The position numbers and the translations under genes are program-made. Below the pieces are notes generated by a model, which worked only from the letters and a program-made list of their open reading frames with translations, was not told the DNA's origin and ran no database searches. A DNA stretch of 10,059 bases from Rickettsia typhi (GTDB lineage Bacteria > Pseudomonadota > Gammaproteobacteria > Burkholderiales > Burkholderiaceae_C), in assembly GCA_943325485.2 (NCBI GenBank), contig CALPPP020000029.1, forward strand, positions 1 through 10,059, given 5' to 3'. Positions 1,648 to 10,058 of the stretch are shown here, piece by piece. Each line of letters starts with the position of its first letter. Within the stretch, counting starts at the first letter, position 1.

Positions 1648-1675
1648 AAAAAAAAACCGCCGGAGGCCGGCGGTT
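1648..1675 (-). terminator. Leader terminator (attenuator) of aroG
   Basis: On the minus strand a perfect 9-bp stem, AACCGCCGG (1675-1667) and CCGGCGGTT (1663-1655), encloses a CCT loop and runs directly into nine T (1656-1648, the first two shared with the stem). This is a textbook intrinsic terminator, but it sits 45 nt upstream of the aroG start and 28 nt after the stop of a Phe/Tyr-rich leader ORF. It would therefore cut transcription before aroG rather than serve only as the tldD terminator. Confidence 0.9.
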
Positions 1676-1723
1676 GGTTCGGGGTTCTAAGCGTTGTTTG
1701 CGTTCAGACCTCTCGACCGCCGG
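1667..1723 (-). promoter_or_regulatory. Antiterminator pairing of the aroG attenuator
   Basis: CCGGCGGT at 1723-1716, inside the leader ORF just after the last Phe codon, is identical to eight bases of the terminator 3' arm (1663-1656). It is a perfect complement of ACCGCCGG (1674-1667) in the terminator 5' arm. Pairing here would prevent the terminator. A ribosome finishing the leader at the TGA (1706-1704) should cover this segment and let the terminator form. A ribosome stalled at the earlier TTT TTC TTC run (1742-1734) should just leave it free. The footprint reasoning uses general knowledge of ribosome size. Confidence 0.7.
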
Positions 1724-1772
1724 TAAAGCGTGAGAAGAAAAAATAAGCAAAGTAAAAACGAAAAGAAGCCAT
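1704..1772 (-). CDS. Phe/Tyr-rich leader peptide of the aroG attenuator
   Basis: A 22-codon ORF (24 if the in-frame ATG at 1778 is used). Its first part reads MASFRFYFAYFFFSRF, followed by TGGREV and TGA. Seven of its first 16 residues are Phe and two are Tyr, including three consecutive Phe codons. The peptide most likely has no function of its own: translation speed over the Phe/Tyr codons would sense charged tRNA-Phe and tRNA-Tyr. The role is inferred from the composition, the terminator 28 nt downstream, the alternative pairing segment inside the ORF, and the target gene, a DAHP synthase. It is analogous to E. coli pheL in front of pheA. No clear Shine-Dalgarno sequence precedes either ATG, so initiation may be leaderless or inefficient; this is the weakest part of the call. 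It is too short for routine gene calling. Confidence 0.78.
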   Translation of the reverse strand: MASFRFYFAYFFFSRFTGGREV

Positions 1773-1779
1773 GGGCATT

Positions 1780-1788
1780 AATGTAGCA
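1780..1788 (-). promoter_or_regulatory. Candidate extended -10 promoter for the aroG leader
   Basis: On the minus strand TGCTACATT (1788-1780) fits an extended -10 (TGn plus TACATT, compared with TATAAT). No good -35 box is visible 16-18 bp upstream, where the tldD stop lies. A start about 7 nt downstream would fall at 1773-1771, on or next to the leader ATG at 1772. Transcription could also simply read through from tldD. Confidence 0.35.
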
Positions 1789-6596: not shown

Positions 6597-7448
6597 ATGC
6601 TTGTTGCCTTTTTCCATGCTGACAGACTTTTGCCCTTGGCCCTGGGCATTTCGCTGGCTGTTCATGCGGTTGTGCTCGCCGTCAGACTGAGCCCGCCTGA
6701 GGATATTGACCGTTTGGTGCGAGACCCTGGCTTAGAAGTGATTTTGGTCAATACCGAGTCGGATGAAAAAGCCCCAGCCAAGCCCAAGGCAATTGCTCAA
6801 ACCAATTTGGCCGGCGGTGGCGAAACCACGAATGACAGATCAACTTCACCATTGATCAATTCACCGACGACCCGCTCTGGTCAAGCTGACAACCAAGTTC
6901 AGCAAAAAATTGCTGAAAAGGAACGCGAACAAGCTGAATTGCTGACCCGCACCAAACAAACTTTAGCCAAACTCAATGCCTCGCACAACACCAACAAAGA
7001 TCCTGCGATTGAGCGGCAACGCCAGCAACTTATCAACTTGCTGGCTCAAATTGAAAAACGCATACAAGAAGAAAACGCACGGCCTCGCAAACGTTATGTC
7101 AGCCCCAGCACACAAGAGGCTTCTTTTGCTCGTTACTACGACTTGCTTAGGCGCAAAATCGAGGCAAAAGGAACCTTGGATTTCCCACAGTCACAAGGCC
7201 AAAAGCTTTATGGCTCGCTGATCATGGTCATCACGATTGACACGCGCGGCCAAGTCATCTCAGCGGATATTTCACAAGGCTCGGGCAACCCTTTGCTTGA
7301 CTTTCATGCCAAACAGATTGTGCGCAATGCTGGCCCCTATGGTGCCTTTAGCGACGCAATGCGGCGAGAAATGGACCAGCTCGCCTTGGTTACGCGCTTT
7401 AGTTTTGACCATAACAACACTTTACAAACCACTTTACAAGGCGAATGA
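6597..7448 (+). CDS. TonB-family energy transducer, non-canonical linker
   Basis: A 283-residue inner-membrane-anchored periplasmic protein. A single signal-anchor helix (about 11-31) carries S19-x3-H23, the SxxxH pattern that couples E. coli TonB to ExbB/ExbD. Next comes a short Lys/Pro/Ala segment (58-66). From about 100 to 162 there is a charged stretch (KIAEKEREQAELL, IERQRQQLINLLAQIEKRIQ) likely to form a coiled coil, in place of the long Pro-Glu/Pro-Lys spacer of classical TonB. The TonB C-terminal domain covers about 178-272 (ARYYDLLRRKIEAKGTLDFP, GSLIMVITIDTRGQVISADI, FHAKQIVRNAGPYGAF). TonB proteins transmit proton-motive energy to outer-membrane receptors or other envelope machines. 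No exbB, exbD or receptor gene is in the window, so the partner is unknown. The start ATG has only a weak GAACGAAG upstream. Its TGA overlaps the mtgA ATG (ATGA), indicating translational coupling. Whether it serves iron uptake or the envelope is open. Confidence 0.82.
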   Translation: MLVAFFHADRLLPLALGISLAVHAVVLAVRLSPPEDIDRLVRDPGLEVILVNTESDEKAPAKPKAIAQTNLAGGGETTNDRSTSPLINSPTTRSGQADNQVQQKIAEKEREQAELLTRTKQTLAKLNASHNTNKDPAIERQRQQLINLLAQIEKRIQEENARPRKRYVSPSTQEASFARYYDLLRRKIEAKGTLDFPQSQGQKLYGSLIMVITIDTRGQVISADISQGSGNPLLDFHAKQIVRNAGPYGAFSDAMRREMDQLALVTRFSFDHNNTLQTTLQGE

Positions 7449-8188
7449 CTTTGCCTTCGCATCGCCGCCATCCACTTTTACTTGCAGGTTTGCGATGGCT
7501 TGTCTTTTTCTTTTGGTGCGCTTTGGGTTTGCAGGTTTTTTTTGTCGCACGCATTGCGATGATGCGCTATGTGGACCCAGGCTCCACCGCTTTTCAAAGG
7601 TCTGAATTGGGTCGTATCAGTCTCAAGTACTCCGCTGTTCGTTGGTCACAGAAATGGGTGGAACGCCCGAAACTGCCAGTCCATATTCAGCGTGCCGTCA
7701 TTGCTTCTGAGGATGATATTTTTGCGTCACATACAGGTGTCCAGTGGGAGGCGCTTGAGCGTGCTTGGAGTAAAAATGCTCGGGCTGAGGCCAAAGCGCA
7801 AGCTAAAAATCAAACCCCTAAAGTGGTGGGTGGCTCCACCATCACACAGCAGTTAGCAAAAAACCTCTTTCTGAGTGGCGAGAGAACTTTCTTTCGCAAG
7901 GCCCAAGAATTGGTCTTGACGCTCGTCTTGGAGCAATGCTTAAGCAAGCAGCGCATCTTAGACATCTATCTCAACAGCGTCGAGTGGGGGGAAGGTATTT
8001 TTGGTATCGAAGCGGCGGCCCGACATTACTATGGCCGCTCTGTGGGTCAATTGAGTGCTGCAGAGGCAGCGCGGCTGGCAGTCATGTTGCCTCGCCCCAA
8101 ATACTATGAAAAATTTCCGCGTTCACCTTATTTGAATGACCGTGCCGCTACGATTTTGGCTCGAATGCCCCAGGTGGCATTGCCATGA
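7445..8188 (+). CDS. mtgA: MtgA, monofunctional peptidoglycan glycosyltransferase
   Basis: A 247-residue GT51 enzyme that polymerises lipid II into glycan strands on the periplasmic side of the inner membrane without transpeptidase activity. An N-terminal membrane anchor spans about 11-38 (rich in Leu, Phe and Val). The GT51 motifs appear in order: motif 1 [15 protein letters not shown], with the general-base Glu E89 followed by D90; motif 2 [15 protein letters not shown] (129-143); motif 3 [13 protein letters not shown] (151-163); motif 4 [20 protein letters not shown] (168-187) with the second Glu E180; then [11 protein letters not shown]. Before motif 2 there is a small Ala/Lys-rich insertion ([13 protein letters not shown]). 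No penicillin-binding domain follows, so it is not a class A PBP. The length fits the family. It overlaps both neighbours by 4 nt through ATGA, so it is probably translated from the same message as the TonB-like gene and ruvC. Confidence 0.96.
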
Positions 8189-8688
8189 CAGAGGTGGTTC
8201 GCATTTTGGGCATAGACCCGGGCTTGCAATGCGTCGGATTTGGCGTGATTGACAGCACAGGCTACCAATTGCACTATGTGGCCAGCGGCACCATCACCAC
8301 CACACATTTGCCGCGCGACGATTTACCTGCCCGCTTGAATGTGATTTTCAAAGGCATTGCGCAAGTGGTTGAGCGCTATGGTCCACAGGAAACAGCGGTT
8401 GAAATTGTGTTTGTCAATATGAATCCGCAAGCCAGCCTTTTACTCGGTCAGGCCAGAGGTGCTTGCTTAACCTCGTTGGTGCAACAAGATTTACCAGTTG
8501 CTGAGTACACCGCATTGCAAATGAAAAAAGCCATTGCTGGACATGGCAAAGCTGCCAAAGCGCAGGTGCAAGAGATGGTGAAGCGTTTGCTGAAGTTGCC
8601 GGCTTTACCAGGACCCGATGCAGCCGATGCTTTGGGCTTGGCGATCACGCATGCGCATGCGCGTCAAAGTGCAATCATCCGTAAATGA
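8185..8688 (+). CDS. ruvC: RuvC, Holliday junction resolvase
   Basis: A 167-residue RNase H-fold nuclease that cuts Holliday junctions symmetrically as a dimer, working with the RuvAB branch-migration motor in recombinational repair. The four acidic catalytic residues are all present: D11 (ILGIDPG), E73 (AVEIVF), and D145 and D148 (GPDAADALG). F76 matches E. coli Phe69, which stacks at the junction. GQARGA (88-93), [19 protein letters not shown] (107-125) and [13 protein letters not shown] (127-139) are family signatures. The length is close to E. coli RuvC (173), with a slightly shorter basic tail. The start ATG overlaps the mtgA stop (ATGA). It is the last gene of its operon and ends 10 bp from the stop of convergent lpxC. 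ruvA and ruvB, its usual neighbours, are not in the window. Confidence 0.97.
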
Positions 8689-8698
8689 GGTACTGAAG

Positions 8699-9622
8699 CT
8701 ACCAAGCAGGCGCGAGTTGGGCAAGACCGCGTGGAGCACGCCGCTCGTCCTCGAAGCTGACGATTTCATAGGCTTGGGGTTGGCTGAGCAACTCGCGCAG
8801 CAAGCGGTTATTCATGGCGTGTCCTGAGCGAAACGCGCTGTAGGACGCCAGCAATGGACGTCCTAAGAGATACAAGTCACCCATAGCATCGAGTATTTTG
8901 TGTTTTACAAATTCATCGTCGTAGCGTAAGCCGTCGCTATTGAGCACTTTGTAATCATCCATGACGATGGCGTTGTCTAAACCACCGCCCAAAGCCAAGC
9001 CATTGGCTCGCATGTGCTCAATGTCTTTTGAAAAACCAAAAGTGCGAGCACGAGCAATGTCTTTGACGTAACTGCCGGTTTCCGTGTCAAATTCAACCCG
9101 TTGACCCGTGGCATCCACTGCTGGGTGTTGAAAGTCAATTTCAAAGCTGAGTTTGTAGCCGTGGTAGGGCGAGAGTTTGGCCCATTTACGATGCTCTGCC
9201 TCACCCTCCATGACCGATACTTCGCTGAGTACACGGATGAAGCGTTTGGGCGCGTCTTGCAACACAATGCCTGCACTTTGCAAAAGAAATACAAAAGAGG
9301 CAGACGAGCCATCGAGGATAGGTACTTCTTCCGCCGTGATATCCACATACAAGTTGTCGATACCAAGCCCCGAACACGCTGACATCAGATGCTCGACGGT
9401 CAGCACCTTCACACCTTGGGCAGAAATGGTGGAGGCCAAACGCGTGTCGGTCACAGCAGTCGCTGAGACCGGTATTTCGACCGGATGACTCAAATCGATG
9501 CGTCTGAAAACCACCCCTGTGTCGGGGGGAGCGGGGCGCAGACACAGTTCTACCCGTTGGCCACTGTGCAGGCCAACACCAACCGCGCGGGTAAGGGTTT
9601 GCAGAGTTCTTTGTTTAAGCAC
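8699..9622 (-). CDS. lpxC: LpxC, UDP-3-O-acyl-N-acetylglucosamine deacetylase
   Basis: A zinc-dependent cytoplasmic deacetylase and the first committed step of lipid A synthesis. Zinc ligands are H78 (LTVEHL), H241 and D245 ([13 protein letters not shown]); the general base is E77, and the second catalytic His is H268 in SGHAMNN. The N-terminal [21 protein letters not shown] and the RARTFGF and [13 protein letters not shown] segments are diagnostic. I place the start at the GTG at 9622-9620 (307 residues, E. coli 305). It begins the conserved LKQRTL segment, lies 10 bp after the ftsZ stop, and has a GAGG just upstream, although the spacing is only 1 nt. A longer in-frame reading from an ATG at 9760 would overlap ftsZ and adds 46 residues unlike LpxC. 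Linkage ftsZ-lpxC is the conserved end of the division/cell-wall cluster. The GTG start and crowded ribosome binding site suggest modest translation coupled to ftsZ. Confidence 0.96.
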
Positions 9623-9632
9623 GCCTCGGATT

Positions 9633-10058
9633 TTAATCAGCTTGTTTGCGCAAGAATGCCGGAATTTCGTAGTTATCCATTCCACCTGAGGACATGGCAT
9701 CCACTTTGGCCGCAGCTTGTGTGCGGTCACGTGTTCGCCACACGCTGGGCACATTGACATTGCCGTAATCGGCCGATGTTATTGCGCTTGCAGTGTTGCC
9801 GGCCATTGGACTGTTCTCAGTCATGGTGCTGCTAGGCATGATGGCTTGTGGGGCATAGCCTACGTTGTCAGTGCCCGTGCGTTGTATGACAGTCAGGGGA
9901 GGTGCGATGCGTTTACCTGCATGTGCCAAACCTGTGGCCACCACTGTGACGCGGATTTGGTCACCCAGCGATTCGTCATAGGCTGTGCCGTAAATCACAT
10001 GGGCTTCAGATGACGCAAAGGCACGAATGGTGTTCATGGCTTCGCGAGACTCTGCCAA
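9633..10058 (-). CDS. ftsZ: FtsZ, tubulin-like cell division GTPase (3' part only)
   Basis: The C-terminal ~142 codons of FtsZ, the polymerising GTPase that forms the cytokinetic Z-ring at midcell. The window cuts off the GTP-binding N-terminal domain. What remains is the end of the globular C-terminal subdomain ([36 protein letters not shown]), a low-complexity linker of about 60 residues rich in Thr, Ser, Pro and Met, and the conserved terminal peptide [13 protein letters not shown], which binds membrane tethers such as FtsA and ZipA. The frame is open to the window edge, so the first visible Met is internal and not the start. lpxC follows after 10 bp on the same strand and is probably co-transcribed. 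Confidence 0.97.

Follow-up and report, generated by a model that had tools for sequence, protein, structure and literature searches.

Introduction

The pheL-pheA and pheM-pheST attenuators of enteric bacteria combine a Phe-rich leader peptide, a terminator and an alternative pairing of the leader RNA that is controlled by the ribosome. A single leader can also sense several amino acids sharing a pathway, as in the ilvB and ilvGMEDA leaders of E. coli, and the DAHP synthases of enteric bacteria are separately regulated. For aromatic genes elsewhere, Table 7 of PMC1173090 lists putative attenuators for Vibrio aroAIalpha_Y-tyrA, which encodes a DAHP synthase and tyrA, and for gyrA-serC-pheA-tyrA of Bordetella parapertussis. 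The legend of Fig. 6b in PMC6429828 refers to short uORFs with Phe and Tyr codons adjoining genes of shikimate metabolism, the genomes being those of an alphaproteobacterium, Clostridium novyi, Thermovirga lienii, Arcobacter and Baumannia. According to the accessible part of PMC7298713, the trpL RNA of Sinorhizobium meliloti (rnTrpL) begins with the ATG of its leader ORF and has a described role in trans. In the open literature, as far as its texts are accessible, we found no account of a leader peptide for aroG in Burkholderiales, while a prediction may be contained in the 2004 survey of proteobacterial attenuators (Vitreschak et al., cited in PMC1262725).

We herein analyse the region in front of aroG in the window, i.e. 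the whole 10,059-nt stretch of DNA, and conclude from sequence comparison that it very probably (at about 0.92) holds a transcription attenuator of the classical ribosome-mediated kind, with aroG as the gene controlled. The mechanism parts are like those of pheL-pheA and pheM-pheST, while the target is a DAHP synthase and the leader carries Tyr and, in relatives, usually also Trp codons. The Rfam model Phe_leader (RF01859) scored 16.8 bits (E 1.9) against the window, below its gathering score of 55, and the locus is therefore not a member of this family by the model.

Results

Leader ORF and terminator in front of aroG

The 203-nt intergenic stretch between tldD and aroG contains a short ORF and an intrinsic terminator on the minus strand (Table 1). 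Seven Phe and two Tyr are found in SFRFYFAYFFFSRF, nine Phe/Tyr among the 22 codons of the leader, and the 3' end of the ORF reads ACC GGC GGT CGA GAG GTC. A sequence-only reading of this DNA had reported an ORF of 22 or 24 codons with these Phe/Tyr counts, a hairpin with nine T and a gap of 28 nt between ORF and hairpin, and we could reproduce all of these coordinates and counts. It had also named the gene behind the terminator a DAHP synthase, which is borne out by the TIGR00034 match and by the closest solved sequences, which are DAHP synthases, some of them named Phe-sensitive or Phe-regulated.

Table 1. Features of the tldD–aroG region, in positions of the window.
Feature	Position	Strand	Remarks
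tldD	stop at 1806	minus	NCBIfam PRK10735.1; 5' neighbour of the leader, same strand as aroG
Putative extended -10 box TGCTACATT	1780..1788	minus	ends 7 nt before the second leader ATG (1772)
Leader ORF, 22 codons, peptide MASFRFYFAYFFFSRFTGGREV	1772-1704	minus	stop codon 1706-1704
Longer leader version, 24 codons, from the first ATG	1778-1704	minus	nested start, same frame
Control codons (predicted), eight Phe/Tyr	1734..1763	minus	first bases 40 to 13 nt before segment 2
Hairpin 1:2 (predicted)	1709..1737	minus	CTTCTC 1737-1732 with GAGAGG 1714-1709; inner stem 1730-1727 with 1721-1718
Segment 2, CCGGCGG, antiterminator arm within leader ORF	1717..1723	minus	complementarity to segment 3
Segment 3, AACCGCCGG, shared arm	1667..1675	minus	pairs with segment 2 (via 1673-1667) or segment 4
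Segment 4, CCGGCGGTT, terminator 3' arm	1655..1663	minus	pairs with segment 3
Terminator hairpin AACCGCCGG-CCT-CCGGCGGTT	1675-1655	minus	starts 28 nt 3' of the leader stop
Nine-T run of terminator	1648..1656	minus	two T inside the stem
aroG, DAHP synthase, 371 aa	487..1602	minus	TIGR00034, E 6.3e-161

A terminator scan by itself is unremarkable here, with 2 terminator-like sites found and 1.3 expected, and a Phe-rich ORF might in principle have come to lie beside an unrelated terminator by chance. We give this a negligible probability, since not one of 20000 shuffles of these 203 intergenic nt (dinucleotide-preserving, with a plain shuffle where that failed) produced a short ORF that starts with ATG and has 8 or more Phe/Tyr in 10 codons, in line with the earlier judgement that the cluster is hardly accidental, and since the conservation described below contradicts it. 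Counting both strands, the window has 164 ATG-started ORFs of 8–40 aa, and more than 4 Phe/Tyr per 10 codons are reached by none of them except this ORF, from either of its two nested starts.

Elsewhere in the window, a 283-aa ORF on the plus strand (6597-7448), with no Pfam match at E 1e-5, precedes a transglycosylase gene (7445-8188). The region 7445-10058 holds the transglycosylase and RuvC and, on the opposite strand, LpxC and a C-terminal piece of FtsZ (Pfam), i.e. housekeeping surroundings.

Conservation across aroG loci

For comparison, 190 aroG loci were assembled from the window, 29 + 80 loci of same-family genomes and 80 named loci among the matches listed. Relatives of aroG were present in 189 of 200 same-family genomes, and the best 109 of the 189 were taken. 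Leader, terminator and segment 2 occur together in 172 of the 190 loci examined, comprising all 109 same-family loci (best 109 of 189), 62 of the 80 named loci among the matches listed, and the window. A fixed register recovered 163 of these carriers and a looser search the other nine, eight of which are named loci. Named carriers include Polaromonas, Variovorax, Hydrogenophaga, Acidovorax, Limnohabitans, Comamonas and Rhizobacter, and further Burkholderia, Paraburkholderia, Caballeronia, Cupriavidus lacunae, Massilia, Rugamonas and Janthinobacterium. The alignment across Burkholderiales, which the sequence-only reading had put forward as a check, came out in its favour, with aromatic codons and reading frame being kept while the peptide drifts to 145 distinct sequences among 163 leaders.

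The leader is absent from 18 of the 80 named loci (among the matches listed): three Polynucleobacter, two other Cupriavidus copies, Thauera, Azoarcus, Rhodocyclus, a Rhodocyclaceae MAG, Chitinimonas, a beta-proteobacterial MAG (L091, 80% identical), three records bearing the labels of other phyla, three gammaproteobacterial records and L037, for which only 40 nt of upstream DNA is available. In Polynucleobacter (L058, L059, L061) and Cupriavidus (L065, L066), aroG is 74–77% identical to that of the window with no leader in 500 nt upstream; the leader may have been lost there, or an aroG copy may have been acquired without it.

The comparison also bears on the view that the hairpin is the transcription terminator of tldD and the Phe/Tyr ORF incidental. 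In the window, tldD is indeed the upstream gene on this strand, its stop codon standing 130 nt ahead of the hairpin. Of the 92 loci that have a leader and flanking sequence, however, 50 have tldD directly upstream and in the other 42 it was not found at that place, the leader staying with aroG. Moreover, both the aromatic ORF and the complementarity between its end and the terminator arm are conserved, and the -10 box just before the leader suggests a promoter of its own, so that a terminator serving tldD is very improbable. The location between tldD and aroG, as first reported, is thus true of the window, but tldD is inessential to the arrangement.

A covariance model built from 46 leaders was searched against 250 genomes of the order with strict filters. 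Matches at E up to 0.001 were obtained in 91 of the 250 genomes and were full-length in 74. We checked 66 of the 74 full-length matches for aroG, the other eight being the window and family genomes already seen. Of those checked, 64 have aroG 21–142 nt downstream in the same orientation and two, both weak (G303, G425), are not adjacent to aroG; the aroG-linked matches span 14 families, including the window's own. Given the strict filters and the 159 genomes without a match, this reach within the order is a lower bound. In G220, G330 and G404 (family f22), the model match is followed by two tandem DAHP synthase genes on the same strand.

Within the class, 5 of 187 genomes match; three belong to the window's family, and the other two to a single family outside the order. 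The latter matches (G573:C8:1048762-1048916 and G450:C33:188723-188878) have aroG 51–58 nt downstream and leaders with FYFWYYF or FYRWYYF, and may point to an older origin of the leader or to transfer.

Aromatic codons of the leader peptide

As in known attenuators, the leader is rich in codons for products of the pathway: at least five in-frame Phe/Tyr/Trp codons precede segment 2 in 161 of the 163 leaders, with a median of 7 aromatic codons in the ORF frame vs 2 and 2 in the other frames. The distance from the last aromatic codon to segment 2 amounts to 9–19 nt in 160 of 163 loci. Tyr is present in 161 leaders, at least three Phe in 161, Trp in 146 and all three amino acids in 144. Upstream of segment 2, TAT/TAC is found in the ORF frame at 161 of 163 loci and in the other frames at 0 and 14, and TGG in the ORF frame at 146 loci and in the other frames at 5 and 30.

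The original Phe/Tyr label holds for the window, yet across the clade a Trp codon is usual (146 of 163 leaders), which makes the label too narrow there. None of the three leaders from the window's genus (L001, L030, L120) has one, and the sensor here would therefore respond to Phe/Tyr. In 14 loci a Trp codon stands away from its usual place, over 18 nt 5' of segment 2, so that its presence, not its position, seems to be kept; conservation of TGG for a reason of RNA pairing is possible. Two leaders (L051, L152) carry His codons at sites occupied by Tyr or different residues in other leaders (RYHFWHFHIQHL), and in a same-genus pair FYFWHFHLPP (L152) compares with FYFWYFYFSP (L166).

A terminator with alternative pairing is a design common to riboswitches, T-boxes and protein-bound elements, and an RNA-binding protein, a small molecule or a directly bound tRNA could take the place of the translating ribosome as the regulator. 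However, zero Rfam families were found in the window at gathering score, relaxed matches being weak, and the in-frame aromatic content is kept over the 145 distinct peptides, with TAT/TAC biased to the ORF frame. As only translation reads in-frame codons, their conservation argues that translation is involved, and we regard regulators of the former kind as highly unlikely.

Antiterminator pairing and covariation

CCGGCGG in the leader (1723-1717) repeats the 3' arm of the terminator and is complementary to its 5' arm (1673-1667), and would therefore be able to pair with this arm as an antiterminator. The sequence-only reading had overlooked this segment. The predicted pairings 2:3 (antiterminator) and 3:4 (terminator) are mutually exclusive, and it is segment 2 that turns leader and terminator into a switch. 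The arrangement is that of an attenuator, with an intrinsic terminator between leader ORF and structural gene and, in segments 2 and 3, an antiterminator which excludes it and whose first arm is placed at the end of the leader ORF.

Over the 163 loci, 7 of 7 positions of 2:3 can pair in 111, 6 in 40 and 5 in 12, counts that are favoured by the choice of segment 2, for which at least 5 of 7 pairs were required. Shuffling segment 3 among the loci gave a mean of 92 full matches and a maximum of 102 in 2000 shuffles, compared with 111 observed, in a control in which relatedness is still present. Changes on one side are accompanied by changes on the other: ten loci from eight genera have CCGTCGG in segment 3, and all of them, and no other locus, have CCGACGG or CCGACGA as segment 2, the leader mostly reading Asp-Gly there in place of Gly-Gly. 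CCGCCAG in segment 3 likewise goes with CTGGCGG in segment 2 in eleven loci.

In a MAFFT alignment of 46 diverse leaders, 83.6% of the cells of the 2:3 helix are paired, vs 16–54% when the helix is slid along the alignment (best slid control 53.6%), and the 3:4 helix reaches 96.6%, vs 27–64% (best slid control 64.3%). The paired percentage of 2:3 was attained by 2 of 500 shuffles and its covariation score by none, while two of the five measures stayed at shuffle level (56 of 500 shuffles were as high for pairs changed on both sides, and 305 of 500 for further pair types). An eighth 2:3 pair, between alignment columns 104 and 170, is missing in 35 of the 46 leaders. Segment 2 is read in frame 1 in 121 loci, in frame 0 in 40 and in frame 2 in 2, of which the last two could be sequencing errors; with its frame differing in this way, segment 2 is not conserved as peptide.

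An attenuation switch in front of aroG, as the sequence-only reading had proposed, is therefore supported by leader, terminator and antiterminator arm being conserved across aroG loci; these parts, their co-variation and their association with aroG are directly observed.

Hairpin 1:2

The minimum-energy fold of the window's leader RNA consists of hairpin 1:2 (1737-1709) and the terminator, at -36.4 kcal/mol and a z of -3.05, with 1 of 200 shuffles as good; across relatives, the median z of the 1:2 fold is -1.11. Loose fold criteria for 1:2 were passed by all 163 loci, yet also by 85–95% of shuffled flanks, and because of the latter the folding test over the 163 loci was dropped as proof of 1:2. 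On the alignment, 1:2 is 75.0% paired vs 65.6% for the best slide, and the outer stem displays some covariation, its score being reached by 9 of 500 shuffles. We consider the predicted hairpin 1:2 the least supported part of the attenuator, with moderate support across relatives.

Attenuation might also proceed without 1:2, as a variant of the proposed explanation and not a rival to it, with the finishing ribosome masking segment 2 and the antiterminator being the default fold in the absence of translation. In 138 of 163 loci, the distance from the start of segment 2 to the stop codon is 8–24 nt, so that a terminating ribosome would cover much of it, and the controls leave hairpin 1:2 little supported beyond chance; the best fold of the window's leader RNA, 1:2 plus 3:4, and the covariation of the outer stem speak against such a variant, and we hold it to be rather unlikely. 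In many of the 46 aligned leaders, GAGAG follows segment 2 (window 1714-1709), and CCTC, TCTC or TTCCC often stands just 5' of segment 3. These tracts may extend the antiterminator or take part in the formation of hairpin 1:2.

Putative promoter and likely leader start

Of the 163 leader starts, 132 have a box resembling TGNTANNNT that ends 6–8 nt upstream, vs 1 of 833 other ATGs of the same upstream stretches; the leader start was picked among in-frame ATGs by its closeness to the -10 spacing. A promoter scan requiring a -35 match as well returned zero promoters in the intergenic stretch. Shine-Dalgarno-like motifs precede 0 of 139 boxed leaders vs 135 of 155 aroG starts, a result which is partly forced, the box filling part of the stretch concerned. 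With the -10 box directly before the leader ATG, transcription is predicted to start at or within ~2 nt of this ATG, and a leaderless leader mRNA is predicted for the window's family. As judged by eye, Burkholderia-type loci have a TATAAA-like box ~35–45 nt upstream instead and Massilia-type loci a likely -10 box that is also farther upstream, so that the leaderless trait would be limited to the window's family and near kin. As for the leader of 22 to 24 codons originally described, both ATGs are present, while the -10 spacing in relatives makes the second ATG (1772, 22 codons) the likelier one.

DAHP synthase complement of the genomes

The type I DAHP synthase domain was searched in 26 genomes. 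Six complete ones, including both complete genomes of the same genus, have one DAHP synthase-like match besides KdsA, which was confirmed in these six; nineteen complete genomes have a third type I match, and the window's own genome, 59% complete, has one type I match. Class II DAHP synthases occur in 2 of the 26 genomes and in none of the six single-copy genomes. Since aroG is the sole DAHP synthase found in both complete same-genus genomes, the whole pathway would be under the control of the switch in these genomes. Such leaders were also looked for at second DAHP synthase copies, and these were rejected as additional targets (0 of 18): two of the 20 second-copy stretches examined (L202, L207) are the leader-bearing copies, and none of the other 18 has an aromatic leader followed by a GC-rich terminator, with a maximum of 5 aromatic residues in 10 (L200).

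Discussion

From the arrangement and conservation of the parts we infer promoter position, leaderless translation, ribosome stalling and a dependence on Phe/Tyr supply, and propose the following model. RNA polymerase would begin at the leader, followed by a ribosome that translates the 22-codon peptide. When charged tRNA-Phe or tRNA-Tyr is scarce, or tRNA-Trp too in most relatives, the ribosome would stall on the aromatic codons 13–40 nt before segment 2. Segment 2 (CCGGCGG) would then stay free to pair with segment 3 (CCGCCGG), no terminator would form, and aroG would be transcribed. With ample aromatic amino acids, the ribosome would reach the stop codon, 17 nt past the start of segment 2, which would be covered or folded into 1:2, leaving segments 3 and 4 to form the terminator and transcription to end near 1648.

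More tentatively, and at what we would put somewhat below even odds, one leader could read Phe, Tyr and Trp at the committed step shared by the pathway, its leaderless RNA integrating the charging of three tRNAs, where enteric bacteria have DAHP synthases under separate control, and genera retuning the codons, with a role in trans being conceivable. As examples of retuned codons, the window's genus is without Trp, and one lineage has His where its sister has Tyr. The attenuator predicts control of the entry step of aromatic amino-acid synthesis in many Burkholderiales, and the natural series of leaders with altered codons and compensating arms offers material for the study of multi-amino-acid attenuation and of the translation of leaderless leaders.

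Among the described systems, the leaders of ilvB and ilvGMEDA share the sensing of several amino acids, theirs being branched-chain and those read here aromatic. The S. meliloti trpL RNA, as presented in the accessible part of PMC7298713, is a leaderless leader mRNA like that predicted for the window's family, with a Trp peptide and trp genes in contrast to the aromatic codons and aroG found here; by analogy with rnTrpL, the terminated aroG leader RNA or its peptide could act in trans. The uORFs of the Fig. 6b legend in PMC6429828 resemble the aroG leader in having Phe/Tyr codons near shikimate genes, although their host bacteria differ. The entries in Table 7 of PMC1173090 are likewise predictions of attenuation at aromatic genes, including a DAHP synthase in the Vibrio case, whereas the operons differ and those table entries are tyrA-associated. 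Within the open literature searched, the best explanation for the aroG leader is a known mechanism, classical attenuation, at a new target, namely a DAHP synthase preceded by this set of codons.
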